Shown here piece after piece: positions 2,020-34,312 of a DNA stretch of 34,510 bases. Each line of letters opens with the position of its first letter. Position 1 is the stretch's first letter. The stretch is taken from NCBI GenBank assembly GCA_031284265.1, contig JAITAG010000012.1, forward strand, positions 1-34,510, given 5' to 3'. Below the pieces are notes generated by a model. That model was given only the letters and a program-made list of their open reading frames with translations. It made no database searches and was not told the DNA's origin. The stretch is from Puniceicoccales bacterium (lineage in GTDB: Bacteria; Verrucomicrobiota; Verrucomicrobiia; Opitutales; LL51). The translations under genes were made by a program, and so were the position numbers.

Positions 2020-4050
2020 ATGACTTCGTTAATTCCGAATAAAAATAATAGTCGCATTCGCTCCCTTATGATTTGGGGAGTTATCATTCTCGTCATGTGT
2101 CTCCTATGGGAGAATTATAGTACGACCATGTCTATTCAGGAGAAATGGACCATTTCCCAAGCTATTGAAGCATCCAAAGCTGGTAAAATTATCAAAGGGT
2201 TTGTCAAATCGGACTCTGCAAAAGGCGAAAAATGGCATACCCTAAGCGGTGAGGCGAAGACGGATACCCCTGTCATTCTTCTCAATGGCCAGACGCGAGA
2301 CTATATCCAATTCGAAGCCGAAGGGAAATTGACCAGTAAACGTTTCGAAGATCTCATGTCATCTTCGGATATCTGGCGCGAAGAATCAAATAACAATCTT
2401 TGGATGTCCATTTTTATCAGTGTCTTGCCCCTACTTATCCTTATCTCTTTTATTTATATTTTCCTTTTTCGTTCCCTAAAAAATGCGAATCGCAGTGCCC
2501 TTATCTTTGGCAAAAGCAAGGCAAAACTCATCGCCAAGGAAAATAATAAAAAAACTTTTAAGGATTTTGCAGGTTACGAGGAAGCAAAAGAGGAAGTGGC
2601 AGAAATCGTCGAATTTTTAAAAAATCCTCAAAAATTTAAAGATATCGGCGCGAAAATTCCCAAGGGATTTCTCATGGTCGGTCCACCGGGGACCGGTAAA
2701 ACTTTGCTTGCCCGCGCCATCGCCGGCGAAGCCAATGTACCCTTTTTTAATGTGAGCGGTTCGGATTTTGTCGAAATGTTTGTCGGTCTCGGTGCGGCCC
2801 GCGTGCGCGATACCTTTGAACAGGCCCGTAAAAATTCGCCATGTCTCGTCTTCATCGATGAAATCGATGCGGTCGGACGCAGTCGCGGAGCCGGTATCGG
2901 TGGTGGCAATGATGAGCGCGAACAAACGCTCAATTCACTACTCGTCGAAATGGATGGCTTCGAAGAAAATAACGGCGTCATTGTTATCGCCGCAACGAAT
3001 CGCCCCGATGTTCTCGATAACGCCCTACTCCGTCCGGGACGCTTCGATCGCCAGGTGGTCATCGATATGCCCGATCTCACCGGCCGCTTCGAAATTTTAA
3101 AGGTCCACGTCGTCCGTTTTAAACTCAAATCCAATATCAGTCTTAAGGAAATTGCCCGACATACTTCGGGATTTTCCGGTGCCGATCTCGAAAACCTACT
3201 CAATGAAGCGGCCATACTCTGCGCGCGCTACAACCATAGGGAAATCGATCGCTCAGAAATTGATGAGGCCTACGATAAGGTCGCCTACGGCCGTGAACGC
3301 CGCAAACTCATGGATCAAAAGGATAAAAAGATTACCGCATTCCACGAGGCCGGTCATGCCATTATTCAAGCCTTTGTCGATACCGGTGACATGCCCGTTC
3401 ATAAGGTGACGATTCTTCCCCGCGGACAAAGCCTGGGTAGCACGATGTTTATGCCCAAAAAAGATATACTCAATTATTCCAAAACGAATATTTTGAACAA
3501 CATTTGCTGTTCCATGGGTGGACGCGTAGCCGAAGAAATTACGTTCAATGAATTGACGAGTGGTGCCGCATGCGATATCAAATCGGCAACTAAATTGGCG
3601 CGAAAAATGGTCTGCGACTGGGGCATGAGTGACCTTGGAACCGTCGCCTACGGCGAAAATCAAGACCACATCTTCCTCGGAAAAGAAATTGCCCGAGATC
3701 AAAATTATAGCGAACAAACGGCCCAGAAAATTGATGCGGAAATCGCTAAAACGATCCAAAACGAATACGAGCGCGCTAAAAAGATCCTCACGGAACACTA
3801 CGCCCTCGTCCAAAAATTGGCGGAAGCACTGCTGAAATATGAGACCATCGAAGGAAAGCACGTCTATGAATTGGTCAAACATGGCGATTTTCGATCGAAA
3901 CTAACGGCCACACGGCGGCGGTCATCGGGTTCCAAAAAGGTCGAAACGGCAATACCTCCGTCCGCCGATGGGGAAAATAAAGAAGAATCAAAAAAAATTG
4001 ATAAAAAGCTTGCAACGGAAAATAAAACCCAAGAAAGAGAATTGGTGTAA
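2020..4050 (+). CDS. ftsH: ATP-dependent zinc metalloprotease FtsH
   Basis: This membrane-anchored AAA+ protease degrades misfolded and short-lived membrane and cytosolic proteins. In LPS-making bacteria it often controls lipid A synthesis. The protein is 676 aa, within the family's usual range. It has TM1 at about residues 13-30, a periplasmic segment to about 125, TM2 at about 128-150, and Walker A GPPGTGKT at about 221-228. Walker B is LVFIDEIDA, followed by the SRH region ([20 protein letters not shown]). The zinc-binding HEAGH starts at about residue 442. The C-terminus is a charged Lys/Glu-rich tail, probably disordered. The gene sits between tilS and marC, with only 6 bases before marC, so the three probably form one transcript. 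Confidence 0.97.
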
Positions 4051-7659: not shown

Positions 7660-7959
7660 CCAGAGGACTCCGCCCTCTGGACTCCCGCCAGGGGATCCAT
7701 CCCATGGACCGGGGTTCCGGGCCTGTTCCCCGGGCAATGCCCGGGGAACAGGCCCGAAGGGCCAAAAGGGCCCGCCCGCGGCGAAGCCGCGGGCGGGAGT
7801 TCCCGCTGCGGCCCAGCCGGGCGAAGAATTCGCCGGACTGGGCCGCAAAAGGAGGTCAAGGAACCATGTTCCTTGCGGGGGCATGGGGCGGAGCCCCATA
7901 AAAAGAGGTCAAGGAGTCTGCAACTCCTTGCGGGTTATAGGGCCCCGGAGCCCCATGGG
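7660..7959. repeat. GC-rich palindrome island B (hairpin mosaic)
   Basis: The island fills the convergent junction between the secretin and M16 peptidase genes. It has M1 at 7660-7680 (loop TCC, one mismatch), M2 at about 7688-7707 and M3 at 7718-7756 (perfect 18-bp stem, loop AAT). M4 is at 7759-7773 and M5 at 7771-7797 (perfect 12-bp stem, loop GAA). M10 is at 7808-7846 (9-bp outer stem, inner GCGAA stem with loop GAA). M8 is at 7857-7875 (perfect 8-bp stem, loop CAT) and M9 at 7883-7899 (perfect 7-bp stem, loop GGA). A second, diverged M8/M9 pair follows (M8' 7910-7930, M9' about 7939-7955). The order matches island A except that M10 replaces M6/M7. The right part forms the 3' end of the M16 gene. 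No T-run follows any hairpin, so simple intrinsic termination is not obvious. Confidence 0.88.
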
Positions 7960-12601: not shown

Positions 12602-12945
12602 TCCAGAGGGCTCCGCCCTCTGGACTCCCGCAAAGAACATGGTTCCTTGACCTTTTTAACGGCCAATCCATGCGAAAGCTTCGCATGGATTGGCCGTAGG
12701 GTCAAAAACTTTATTTTTAGGGATTATTTTCCCCGCGGCCCAGCTGGATGAATCCTTCGCCCGACTGGGCCGCAGAAGGAAACTCCGCCCGGCGCTTCGC
12801 GCCGAGCTGGGATAGTTTTTTTTGGCCCTTCGGGCCTTTATTTTTCCTTGGCCAAAAAGTCAGGGCCTGCCCGGGGGACAGGTCCGGAACCCCGGTCCAG
12901 GGGATGGCATCCCCTGGCGGGGATCCAAGGGCACGCAGCCCTTAG
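12602..12945. repeat. GC-rich palindrome island C (hairpin mosaic, inverted order)
   Basis: The island fills the convergent junction between the UDP-sugar pyrophosphorylase and hprK genes. It has M1 at 12602-12624 (10-bp stem, loop TCC), M8 at 12631-12649, M7 at 12659-12697 (perfect 18-bp stem, loop AGC) and M10 at 12735-12773. M11 is at 12790-12804 (loop TTC) and M12 at 12824-12836 (loop TTC). A collapsed M6 remnant lies at about 12847-12855, then a damaged M3 (about 12863-12885), M2 at 12897-12917 (perfect 9-bp stem, loop GGC) and M13 at about 12925-12945. Past M1, the order is the reverse of islands A and B. The block 12631-12743 is nearly identical to 33925-34035 in island D, including the non-palindromic linker between M7 and M10. 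Confidence 0.88.
12824..12845 (+). terminator. Intrinsic-terminator-like hairpin within island C
   Basis: GGCCC-TTC-GGGCC (12824-12836) is followed directly by TTTATTTTT (12837-12845). On the plus strand this has the form of a Rho-independent terminator for the upstream FtsB/pyrophosphorylase operon, though it lies 220 bases past the last stop. On the minus strand no T-run follows. Confidence 0.5.
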
Positions 12946-12962: not shown

Positions 12963-13925
12963 CTAAAGATGATTTCCTTGCATATGCGTAATGAGACGTT
13001 TTGTAATTTCCTCGGCAGGGTTACTGCCACTTGCCCTTAACACTTGCAGCAGTGTTGTAACTTCAATCAATCGGTAGGAATCATTTCCCGAGCAAAGGGG
13101 CAAGACGACCAATGGCAAGGTAATGCCTAAGATTTCACAGCTCGATGGTTCTTCGAGTCCGGATTTTCCCACATCGAGTGGCAATGTTTCTTCGAAGCGG
13201 ATTACGAGATCGATCGTGGATTGTTGTCGTATAGCATGCATTCCGAAGAGATCTGTCAATCGAAGTAGCCCAATTCCGCGGAATTCCATGAATCCGTAAC
13301 TAATTTTTTTACTTCGTCCGACGAGTGTTTTATGACGTCCGCAGGAAATACAGACGACATCATCGGCGATCAATGCATGGCCATGTTCGACCAATGCGAC
13401 TGTACAGATACTTTTTGAAAATGTCGGTAAGCCTTGAATGAGAACGCCGATACCATAGATTTCGATAAGGGTTCCGAAAAGGGTTGTTGTTGGGGAAAAG
13501 TACTCATCGAAAAAGAGGGTTGCTCCTTCGATAAACTCGACGGAACTGAGTGCTGTCGAAAATAACGGCAGCGCTCGGTCATCAAAAAAATCAATTAAAT
13601 GTTGCGGAATAGTAATGCGATCGGTTACGACGAAGCAGGGTACTTTCCGTTCGTCGATATTTCCTATGGCTTTTAATTGATCCTTTTGATCGAGATCGAG
13701 GAGGTAGGATAATTCGCAAAAACCGGAATACTGCAAACGTTTCTGGGCGAAATGTTTGAAGTAGCCCGTTAATGCGAGTGCGGGTCGATTGATGGCACGA
13801 TCCGCGATTTTTCGCGTATCGAGGCCATTTTCACCTGCGATGAGTTTAAGTTTTAATAGATTTTGCGTCATTTCGAAGAAACGACGAACAACTAATTCAT
13901 GATTTACTTTTATTAGTTCCTTCAT
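12963..13925 (-). CDS. hprK: HPr kinase/phosphorylase (HprK) homologue with a degenerate P-loop
   Basis: Full-length HprK fold (320 aa). The N-terminal domain spans about 1-130 and the kinase domain begins near TTLFGTLIEIYGIGVLI at 147. HprK normally phosphorylates and dephosphorylates Ser46 of HPr. Retained features are ADD at 187-189 (catalytic Asp), GHALIADD, EFRGIG at 214-219 (family signature), the DLFG segment and the TIDLVI strand. Altered features: Walker A reads GLPTFSKS at 165-172 where GxxGxGKS is expected, so the glycine before Lys is Ser and the usual third-position Ser and Gly are Pro and Thr. The usual Glu after KS is Ile173. The conserved His just before the kinase-domain GxLI strand is Phe150. 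The gene lies 21 bases downstream of the EIIA-cyclase fusion in one operon. No ptsH or ptsI is in the window. Identity by homology is firm. Kinase activity is doubtful. Confidence 0.85.
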   Translation of the reverse strand: MKELIKVNHELVVRRFFEMTQNLLKLKLIAGENGLDTRKIADRAINRPALALTGYFKHFAQKRLQYSGFCELSYLLDLDQKDQLKAIGNIDERKVPCFVVTDRITIPQHLIDFFDDRALPLFSTALSSVEFIEGATLFFDEYFSPTTTLFGTLIEIYGIGVLIQGLPTFSKSICTVALVEHGHALIADDVVCISCGRHKTLVGRSKKISYGFMEFRGIGLLRLTDLFGMHAIRQQSTIDLVIRFEETLPLDVGKSGLEEPSSCEILGITLPLVVLPLCSGNDSYRLIEVTTLLQVLRASGSNPAEEITKRLITHMQGNHL

Positions 13926-13946: not shown

Positions 13947-15305
13947 TTAAATGGATGGAGATGAAAAACTTTGATCGGAAAATAGCATCATTTTACCATC
14001 TTTGAATAGGGTGACCTGGTGTGTACTTTCGGAGACAGCGACGGCGATGCAGTGGGCTACCGCTGAAATAACGGCTCCCGCGGCGTGTCGTGTTCCAAAG
14101 CCACTGGGCATTTGAACCGCATGTTCACTCGAAGCCTGGATAAGTGATCCCGCAGATTCAATAACGCCGTCGCCGCGAACGATAAAGGCGCCGTCAATGG
14201 ATGAGAATTCCTTAATCGTTTCCGCCATAAATGGATTTAAGATATTGCGATCTTCTTCCTTATAGCCGTAGAATGGATTGAGGACGAGGGGTTTTGTGAA
14301 AGGTTTAATTTTAGCGATATCGCCAATAACAAATAGGCAGCCGACGGATTTTCCTTCGCGGCCTTCGACGGCGATATCCGCGGCGATGGCTAGTAGGCGC
14401 TCAAGGACTTCGGGGTGAATACCTTCTGCGAGGAGATCCTCATTATTGGAGAACGAGTTGCCGAATTCTTTACCGATATCAAAAATTGAAATGGTGTCGA
14501 AAACATTGCTTTGAGGTAATCCGGCGAAGCAACAGATTCTATCCCTTTGGGTAAGGAGACCGCGAGTTAGGCCAATAATAACGGCGCTACGGGCTTGGGA
14601 CAGTCGATAATTCGAAAAGGGATGGACGTAGATCACGTCATCAAAGTAGTTTTCCATTGTCGTATCCGTTTTATGGGTGACGAGAATAAAGGTTAGCTTG
14701 TCGGAATGTTCCTTAAAATCGAAGGTTTCTGTTAAGACGTCGCCAAAAACGAGAACCGCGTTACACTTATTGGCATGGGCAATTTTCTGAGCTTCGCGGA
14801 GCATAAATTGGTTAAGGGAGCTTTTATTGGAATTGACGCTGGATTTGTAGGTTCCGAAAAGAAGGCGTACGTGTTCGCGAAAGGCGTTAATGGATTGGTT
14901 TTCGAGGATTAGGTTAACGTTTTCCGGGTGCTGGAAAATGCGCGCGATGGCTGCGAGGACGGTAAGGTAGGATTCTTCATTTGCCGTCGAAATGATCATT
15001 AAAAAGACGATGCGCGTATCTTTATGTTCACCGGAGTTCGAAAAATTGAGGCCATTTTTACAACGTCCGATGACAAAAATATAGGGTTTACTGATGGGAC
15101 GGCGGATATAGGGCATGGCGATTCCATTGCCGAGGTAGGAGGTAATTGTTTTTTCGCGTTCCAAGATTTCATTGACAATGGAGGCGTTAACTTCGGGATC
15201 GTCGGAAATATTACAAGTTTGGAGTAATTCGGTAAGTGTATCACTAAAATCATTGCTTTTGAGTTCAATGATTCGATTTTTTGATAAATACTTTCCAAGA
15301 CGCAT
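13947..15305 (-). CDS. PTS EIIA (PtsN-like) domain fused to a DacZ-like diadenylate cyclase
   Basis: A 452-aa fusion of three parts. Residues 1-150 form an EIIA type-2 (PtsN-like) domain, starting MRLGKYLSKNRIIEL. The active-site motif reads LGNGIAMPY, with Tyr66 where the phospho-histidine normally stands. Residues about 165-285 form a pyruvate-kinase-C-terminal-like alpha/beta domain as in archaeal DacZ (AHANKCNAVLVFGDVL, QRDRICCFAG, FDIGKEFG). Residues about 295-445 form the DisA_N/DAC domain (GREGKSVGCLFVIGD, NPFYGY, DGA at 371-373, GTRHAAG at 404-410, VSEST). DAC domains condense two ATP to c-di-AMP. The RHR motif reads RHA. The ATG at 15305 has GGGAAAG upstream and begins where PtsN proteins normally begin. 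A TTG at 15380 would add 25 residues without family support. hprK follows in the same operon. EIIA and DAC identities are firm. The input signal and activity are inferred. Confidence 0.85.
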   Translation of the reverse strand: MRLGKYLSKNRIIELKSNDFSDTLTELLQTCNISDDPEVNASIVNEILEREKTITSYLGNGIAMPYIRRPISKPYIFVIGRCKNGLNFSNSGEHKDTRIVFLMIISTANEESYLTVLAAIARIFQHPENVNLILENQSINAFREHVRLLFGTYKSSVNSNKSSLNQFMLREAQKIAHANKCNAVLVFGDVLTETFDFKEHSDKLTFILVTHKTDTTMENYFDDVIYVHPFSNYRLSQARSAVIIGLTRGLLTQRDRICCFAGLPQSNVFDTISIFDIGKEFGNSFSNNEDLLAEGIHPEVLERLLAIAADIAVEGREGKSVGCLFVIGDIAKIKPFTKPLVLNPFYGYKEEDRNILNPFMAETIKEFSSIDGAFIVRGDGVIESAGSLIQASSEHAVQMPSGFGTRHAAGAVISAVAHCIAVAVSESTHQVTLFKDGKMMLFSDQSFSSPSI

Positions 15306-15445
15306 AGTTACTTTCCCATGCAAGATAGTATTGAAACTTTTCATGCCAACTATAAATTTAAAAAGATGAGAAAAATTCAAAGACAGAAAAATTTTTATGG
15401 CTTGTCATCTAGGAAGGGAGTAATAGGGTAAAGAGTGGTAGGTTT

Positions 15446-16570
15446 ATGAAATTCATACTAGAAAAGGATACATTGATCGCGGGATTGCAGCAGGTAATGA
15501 ATGTTGTTGGGACAAAATTGACCATGCCGATCCTTTCCAATGTTTTGATCGAGGCCATTGCTGATCGGGGACAAGTTACATTTTCGACGACTAATTTGGA
15601 TATGGGTATGTGTTGCAGTGTGATGGCCCAAGTCCAGCAATCGGGTCGGATTACCTTACCCGTAAAAAAATTGGCCTCCATTGTGAAAGCACTGCCGGGA
15701 AAGGAAGTGACCTGTGTGCTGGAAAATGATGTTCTCGTTCGGATCGAATCGGACGGTTCCCGTTTTAAGATTTTAGGTTTGGCGGCGAACGATTTTCCGG
15801 CACTGCCGCAGTTGGAGATAGAACAAAAAATCGAAGTTAATCAAATGCGACTGGCTCGCCTATTGAAGAGTATTTCCTATGCTCAATCGAGGGACGAGAA
15901 TCGCTTCATTTTGAATGGCATCTATTTCTTGGTGGAGGACGGTCATTTAAATCTTGTCGCGACTGATGGTCGTCGTCTGGCATTGACTTCCAGTGAAATT
16001 CCAGGCTGTGACTTTCAAAAAAGTGTCATTGTTCCCGCAAAAATGGTCGCAGAATTGGAGCGTACCTTGGGCATTGGTGAAAATGCGCGCCTCTTCATGA
16101 CCGATAGGCAAATCGCCTTTTCTATCGATGTTTCCAGCGAAAATAACCTCAGCGATTCGATTTATATCGTTTCGAAAATTGTCGAAGGTAAATATCCAAA
16201 CTATAAACAGGTCATTCCGGCTTCCTCTGACTACCACGTGCGATTGGATCGGGAACAGTTATTGTCTGTGGTGCAACGCATTGCACTCGTTGCAGACGAA
16301 AAAGACTATTCGGTTCGTTTGAAATTTGAAGATAATTTGTTAGAAATTTCGGCGCGTAGTGTAAGCTACGGAGAGGCACGGGAAGCCCTACCCATTGCCT
16401 ACGATGGAAAGGTCGTAGGGATTGCCTTTAATCCGCAATTCTTGATCGATCCCTTCAAAGTTTTGACCAATGATGAAATATTTTTTGAGTTCAAGGACGA
16501 GTTTAGCCCTGGAATGATTAAAACGAATGATACGTTTTTATGCGTAGTCATGCCCCTGCGGATTAATTAA
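15446..16570 (+). CDS. dnaN: DNA polymerase III beta subunit (sliding clamp)
   Basis: The ring-shaped processivity clamp of the replicative polymerase, 374 aa, the usual length. Three repeated clamp folds are visible. The N-terminal one starts MKFILEKDTLIAGLQQVMNV, the middle one has the hallmark ENRFILNGIYF and ATDGRRLALT (about residues 150-180), and the C-terminal one ends with the canonical CVVMPLRIN. GGTAGG lies 4-9 bases before the ATG. The gene is divergent from the EIIA-cyclase/hprK operon, with 140 bases between them. No dnaA, recF or gyrB is adjacent, so this is not a classical origin-side cluster. Confidence 0.96.
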   Translation: MKFILEKDTLIAGLQQVMNVVGTKLTMPILSNVLIEAIADRGQVTFSTTNLDMGMCCSVMAQVQQSGRITLPVKKLASIVKALPGKEVTCVLENDVLVRIESDGSRFKILGLAANDFPALPQLEIEQKIEVNQMRLARLLKSISYAQSRDENRFILNGIYFLVEDGHLNLVATDGRRLALTSSEIPGCDFQKSVIVPAKMVAELERTLGIGENARLFMTDRQIAFSIDVSSENNLSDSIYIVSKIVEGKYPNYKQVIPASSDYHVRLDREQLLSVVQRIALVADEKDYSVRLKFEDNLLEISARSVSYGEAREALPIAYDGKVVGIAFNPQFLIDPFKVLTNDEIFFEFKDEFSPGMIKTNDTFLCVVMPLRIN

Positions 16571-33884: not shown

Positions 33885-34312
33885 CAAGGAGGCTTACAAG
33901 AGGGCTCTGCCCTCTGGACTCCCGCAAGGAACATGGCTCCTTGACCTTTTTAACGGCCAATCCATGCGAAATTTTCGCATGAATTGGCCGTAAGGTCAAA
34001 GACTTTTATTTTAGGGATTATTCCCCGCGGCCCAGCCCGGCGAATTCTTCGCCGGACTGAGCCGCAGGGCAAGTTTAAATTTTACCCTGGCCGAAGTGCT
34101 GCGCATCGCGCAGCGCCTCGGCAAAAGTCAGCCCGCCCGCGGCTTCGCCGCGAGCGGGCCCTTTGGGTCCTTCGGGCCCGCTCCCCGGGCGTTGCCTGGG
34201 GCAAGGCCCGCAATCCCGGTCCAGTGGATGGATCCCCTGGCGAGAGTCCAGAGGGCAGAGCCCTCTGGATAACCATCCCCTGGTGGGGATCCAAGGGCGA
34301 GTAGCCCTTGGA
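33885..34312. repeat. GC-rich palindrome island D (hairpin mosaic, inverted order)
   Basis: The island fills the convergent junction between ligA and the next minus-strand gene. It has M1 at 33899-33915 (loop TCT), M8 at 33925-33943, M7 at 33953-33991 and M10 at 34027-34065 (inner 8-bp stem, loop TTC). M6 is at 34090-34122 (loop ATC), M5 at about 34132-34158 (loop TTC), M4-like repeats at about 34157-34178 and M3 at about 34173-34209 (loop GTT). M2 is at about 34220-34240, a second M1 at 34247-34269 (10-bp stem, loop CAG), a partial M2 at about 34273-34290 and M13 at 34290-34312. This is close to the reverse complement of island A in module order. Confidence 0.88.

Follow-up and report, generated by a model that had tools for sequence, protein, structure and literature searches.

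For most diadenylate cyclases, it is not known which signals feed into the enzyme; the architectures of these enzymes are reportedly reviewed in Galperin's 2023 "All DACs in a Row." DacZ/CdaZ enzymes such as Haloferax volcanii DacZ (PMC6741144) carry a PK_C-like N-terminal domain and a C-terminal DAC domain, while CdaA (DacA) is membrane-anchored (PMC8573169). The product, c-di-AMP, binds the RCK_C domains of KtrA and CpaA (PMC5575661). Unphosphorylated PtsN (EIIA-Ntr) also docks on K+ transporters, binding TrkA and YcgO in Escherichia coli (PMC13104625, PMC11808508). Here we describe a gene that joins a PtsN-like EIIA domain to DacZ_P and DAC domains. It lies in a 34,510-nucleotide stretch of DNA (the window) from a Puniceicoccales bacterium.

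Results

A single gene encodes EIIA, DacZ_P, and DAC domains

The following features were located in the window.

12963 to 13925, minus strand: HprK homologue (HPr kinase/phosphorylase), 21 bp downstream of dac on the same strand
13947 to 15305, minus strand: dac, the EIIA-DacZ_P-DAC fusion gene (452 aa plus stop), from the translated frame, Pfam, and a DAC search of the genome
13989 to 14372, minus strand: DAC (diadenylate cyclase) domain, residues 312 to 439 (Pfam E value 1.1e-20; 73.9 bits versus a cut-off of 27)
14466 to 14810, minus strand: DacZ_P (PF21755), a PK_C-like probable sensor domain, residues 166 to 280 (Pfam E value 4.1e-9; 36.6 bits versus a cut-off of 27.4)
14874 to 15260, minus strand: PTS_EIIA_2 domain, residues 16 to 144 (Pfam E value 1.2e-17; 64.7 bits versus a cut-off of 27)
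15108 to 15110, minus strand: codon 66, TAT (Tyr), at the phospho-His site, from the alignment of homologues
15446 to 16570, plus strand: dnaN-like gene (DNA polymerase III beta subunit), recognized by eye from the sequence

The initial annotation had described a type-2 EIIA, a pyruvate-kinase-C-like domain, and a DAC domain in one 452-residue chain, with Tyr66 in place of the phospho-histidine. Both descriptions were borne out, since all three domains exceed their curated Pfam cut-offs and the TAT codon supplies the tyrosine of the motif GNGIAMPYIRR. DacZ_P, which Pfam already labels "Probable sensor domain DacZ_P," lies directly N-terminal of DAC. Homologues share the ATG start at 15305 and give no support to a longer, TTG-initiated version of the frame beginning at 15380, which was rejected. 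The fusion was the sole DAC-domain gene detected in the window's genome (0.96 Mb, 82.5% complete).

An AlphaFold2 model built on a 34-row alignment had a mean pLDDT of 76 and a pTM of 0.53, so it does not fix how the domains pack. When Foldseek was run with the predicted structure, an EIIA-Ntr structure was the top match, and the matches included EIIA-Ntr (2a0j) as well as DisA and CdaA structures. The DAC motifs read DGA at residues 371 to 373 and GTRHA at 404 to 408, with D371, G372, R406, and H407 invariant across 100 homologues. The canonical RHR motif reads RHA in the window protein, with Ala likewise in 91% of homologues, so catalysis is presumed, and the fusion would make c-di-AMP.

The architecture is standard in the Opitutales

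We compared 53 genomes, 12 from the window's genus (g1) and 41 others. The frame was kept in 11 of the 12 congeners, and in the twelfth (G005) the contig breaks off beside hprK, at the expected place of dac. Counting the genus, the fusion was matched in 47 of the 53 genomes, nearly always as a complete three-domain protein; this conservation confirms that the frame in the window is a real gene and not a chance reading frame. GTDB contigs with titles such as Puniceicoccales, Opitutales, and Opitutaceae yielded the protein as well (135 loci, 80 retained). In a phylum-wide search, DacZ_P marked the order, and 8 genomes matched beyond it. One of these eight, G425, carries the full architecture with the motif LALPHAR, His included; G391, also outside the order, carries DacZ_P-DAC without EIIA. 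Among the Opitutales, an order assigned here from contig titles, EIIA-DacZ_P-DAC is the standard form of diadenylate cyclase, and it turns up only here and there in the rest of the phylum, so it is not unique to the window. Outside the order, most sampled members of the phylum had frames of ~250 to 340 aa with strong DAC matches (about 120 to 149 bits), and these short proteins appear CdaA-like, a class assigned by length and score only. In the literature collection searched, no paper came up on DacZ_P/DacZ_N or on Opitutales with diadenylate cyclase.

Individual genomes departed from the common form. G038 (L144) has lost the EIIA domain and retains DacZ_P-DAC, G046 (L145) has lost the EIIA motif and has Cys at site 66, and G050 (L148) has Ser at site 66 plus a separate His-bearing EIIA. 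G024 was considered as a natural split between EIIA and DacZ and set aside, since both pieces stop at contig edges and the split is probably an assembly break.

Tyr66 is derived and arose at least twice

Among 140 distinct homologues, residue 66 was His in 122, Tyr in 16, Ser in 1, and Cys in 1. Tyr66 was confined to the window's genus (11/11), where both TAT and TAC encode it, and to a large-genome family, f4 (5/5). On a maximum-likelihood tree built from DacZ_P-DAC, Tyr66 requires two separate origins; by this sequence evidence, His66 is ancestral and Tyr66 is derived, having arisen at least twice. The initial annotation had stated that homologues of the same architecture with His would make Tyr66 a lineage-specific loss. 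Aligning the EIIA active site across homologues found them in a large majority, so Tyr66 is a lineage-specific loss. The other EIIA motif residues (LG-G--P-R and Y113-L114) are still conserved in the genus.

Family f4 (L202 to L205) replaced His66 with Tyr independently and retains EI; in the two members checked (G016 and G042), HPr and HprK have intact motifs. We rejected a rule by which EI loss causes Tyr66, since f4 has Tyr66 with EI, and the sister genus g2, G019, and G039 have His66 without it. Family f4 is the cleanest counterexample to a simple story in which EI was lost first.

The phosphorelay is disarmed in the genus

EI (PF05524) had no match in any of the 12 genomes of the genus (64 to 93% complete) and was present in 31 of the 41 outside it, so that 22 of the 53 lacked it overall. 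The EI-less genomes beyond the genus include g2 and the small genomes G019, G038, G039, and G046; g2, G019, and G039 lack EI yet keep His66. HPr was found in 9 of the 12 congeners, and all nine proteins keep His15 and Ser46. Arg17, one of the main residues through which HPr contacts EI (PMC8509676, PMC3724859), is replaced in all nine by Thr, Ile, or Ala and is present in all 16 HPr proteins examined outside the genus. HPr in the genus could have been kept for some other partner.

The window's HprK homologue passes the NCBIfam HprK cut-off (245.5 versus 240) but has the P-loop GLPTFSKS instead of GxSGxGKS. The P-loop glycines are lost in 9 of 9 proteins in the genus, whereas all 10 relatives examined outside it retain GxSG[VI]GKS, and the window protein is probably without kinase activity. 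The gene was detected in 9 of the 12 congeners; since three gave no match, the module can do without HprK. The catalytic His of HprK was tried as a second marker and dropped, as it is also missing in two relatives, G025 and G033. Judged by these residues and genes, the phosphorelay is disarmed in the genus, and its remaining proteins are still conserved.

Of 27 relatives encoding EI together with the fusion, 17 have no PTS_EIIA_2 match besides the fused domain, and 16 of those 17 have His66. The search covered two EIIA classes, type 2 and the mannose type; EIIA-man (PF03610) had no match in any of the 53 genomes, and a route from HPr to a mannose-type EIIA was rejected on that ground. Since the fused domain is so often the sole EIIA_2 match and EIIA-man was not found, gene content makes the c-di-AMP synthase a plausible terminal acceptor of the EI-HPr chain in relatives.

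The neighbourhood of dac differs between the genus and its relatives

Wherever a genus locus contains the two genes, hprK comes immediately after dac on the same strand. This adjacency was absent from the loci examined outside the genus, where only L107 has hprK near dac, 5.3 kb away and on the opposite strand. The dnaN-like gene is the divergent neighbour of dac and also adjoins it in congeners without hprK. In 70 of 70 non-genus GTDB loci (L111 and 69 more), dac is preceded on its own strand by nuoA (complex I chain 3, PF00507), with a median gap of about 75 bp; nuoA was not found in the ten genus loci.

Near dac in one congener (L068), a TLC ATP/ADP transporter (PF03219; 3562 to 5082, minus strand) and a CesT-type secretion chaperone (2803 to 3282, minus strand) were observed, and these genes point to an intracellular, host-dependent lifestyle. 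The window's genus is a gut genus, and the window comes from a shrunken, probably symbiotic verrucomicrobial genome. Dispersed G+C-rich, palindrome-bearing repeats occur in the window at 273 to 561, 7660 to 7848, 12605 to 12932, and 33899 to 34272; they are about 73 to 91% alike, occur in both orientations, and are mostly intergenic. Another contig (L162, judged by its open reading frames) holds a sequence resembling them. A tandem array of the 8-base unit TTCCGCAC and its variants occupies 51 to 138.

Candidate partners of c-di-AMP were present elsewhere. The window's genome encodes a protein of the Na_H_Exchanger type that carries two TrkA_C (RCK_C) domains (L238) and a DHH/DHHA1 protein (L239) that is a candidate phosphodiesterase or nanoRNase; TrkA_C matches were found in all genomes of the genus.

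The remaining proteins are under purifying selection

Pairwise Nei-Gojobori dN/dS ratios were calculated within the genus with our own script and are approximate, since few pairs per domain (2 to 7) fell below synonymous saturation. The medians were 0.08 for EIIA, 0.055 for DacZ_P, 0.02 for DAC, 0.09 for HprK, and, for HPr, 0.11 (0.20 among the few close pairs). DAC is thus the most constrained domain of the fusion and EIIA the least constrained of the three. Since all the ratios are far below 1, as expected of purifying selection, the fusion gene is not decaying, and the alternative of a decayed gene raised in the initial annotation is contradicted.

Discussion

From what was observed directly, namely, the architecture, the residue losses, the loss of EI, the new adjacency, and purifying selection, we consider it reasonably probable that a DacZ-type diadenylate cyclase with a PtsN-like EIIA once ended a phosphorelay and, in this genus, came to have its c-di-AMP output set by phosphorylation-free docking. 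In the ancestral state, EI and HPr would carry phosphate from PEP to His66 of the fused EIIA, and the PEP/carbon and energy state sensed through EIIA would tune DAC and so c-di-AMP. The losses of EI, HPr Arg17, the HprK P-loop glycines, and EIIA His66 indicate that phosphorylation was abandoned in the genus. EIIA would persist there as a fixed, dephospho-like module for binding proteins or ligands, possibly still contacting HPr and the HprK-derived protein encoded just downstream, and would determine how active the sole c-di-AMP synthase is, or its oligomeric state. By analogy, the likeliest output is K+/osmotic balance through the RCK_C-bearing cation/H+ antiporter, given that such an antiporter is present, that c-di-AMP binds RCK_C domains, and that dephospho-PtsN binds K+ transporters.

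Phosphorylation-independent docking or sensing is the best reading of an EIIA that is under selection yet non-phosphorylatable, beside intact DGA and GTRH motifs and without EI. The phosphorylation-independent role proposed in the initial annotation therefore suits the window's genus, where the EIIA domain is kept by selection, and does not extend to the whole architecture, most members of which keep His66. That the genus turned a PTS branch (HPr, HprK, and EIIA) into a phosphorylation-free c-di-AMP circuit, while free-living relatives run an EI-HPr relay that has the c-di-AMP synthase as its sole type-2 acceptor and ties PEP status directly to c-di-AMP, we put forward only tentatively.

The EIIA domain might instead serve the DacZ core only as a structural or oligomerization spacer, retained for folding and receiving no signal. 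G038, which lacks EI and HPr as well as the EIIA domain, shows that the DacZ_P-DAC core can stand alone, and EIIA is the domain under least constraint (dN/dS 0.08 versus 0.02 for DAC). A spacer, however, would not account for the conserved EIIA motif residues besides His66, nor for the retention of EIIA in several EI-less small genomes (the genus, g2, G019, and G039), and we judge this reading rather unlikely. Drift is a further candidate explanation: the module could be decaying slowly in a reduced symbiont genome and have become functionless, as the combined loss of EI, Arg17, the P-loop, and His66 and the missing hprK in three congeners might suggest. Yet the frames are open, dN/dS is well below 1 for EIIA, DAC, HprK, and HPr, and 11 of 12 genomes carry an intact gene, with the contig edge in G005 falling where the twelfth would lie; we therefore give decay very little credence.

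Tyr66 might also be a switch in itself, either as the target of a tyrosine kinase or as a permanent mimic of one phospho-state. Tyr replaced His on at least two occasions and became fixed in both clades, and TAT and TAC are both used in the genus. However, a single transition (CAY to TAY) suffices for the change, so that its repetition is cheap, and a switch at Tyr66 seems to us very unlikely. The noteworthy feature is the pattern as a whole: EI, Arg17, the P-loop, and His66 are lost, while the remaining proteins are selected and two of them are newly adjacent. The genus is in effect a natural mutant set in which EIIA persists under selection after the phosphate chemistry is lost, and it separates docking from phosphorylation in EIIA function. 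For relatives, an EIIA carried on the cyclase, often the only type-2 EIIA beside EI and HPr, offers an input that can be tested directly, running from PEP through EI and HPr to EIIA.

The fusion unites two regulators, PtsN and c-di-AMP, that act on K+ transport elsewhere. With PtsN, its EIIA shares fold and profile, but it is fused to a cyclase and, in the window's genus, has Tyr for the phospho-His and occurs in genomes in which no EI was found. With DacZ/CdaZ, the protein shares the PK_C-like and DAC domains, and the NCBIfam DacZ model is its best NCBIfam match (E value 7.7e-31); it differs in the added N-terminal EIIA and is not an equivalog of haloarchaeal DacZ (NF041371), scoring 107.4 bits versus a cut-off of 430. 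With CdaA it has the DAC domain in common, whereas CdaA lacks EIIA and DacZ_P; CdaA-type-like genes occur in most other sampled members of the phylum, and the order carries this DacZ-type gene instead.
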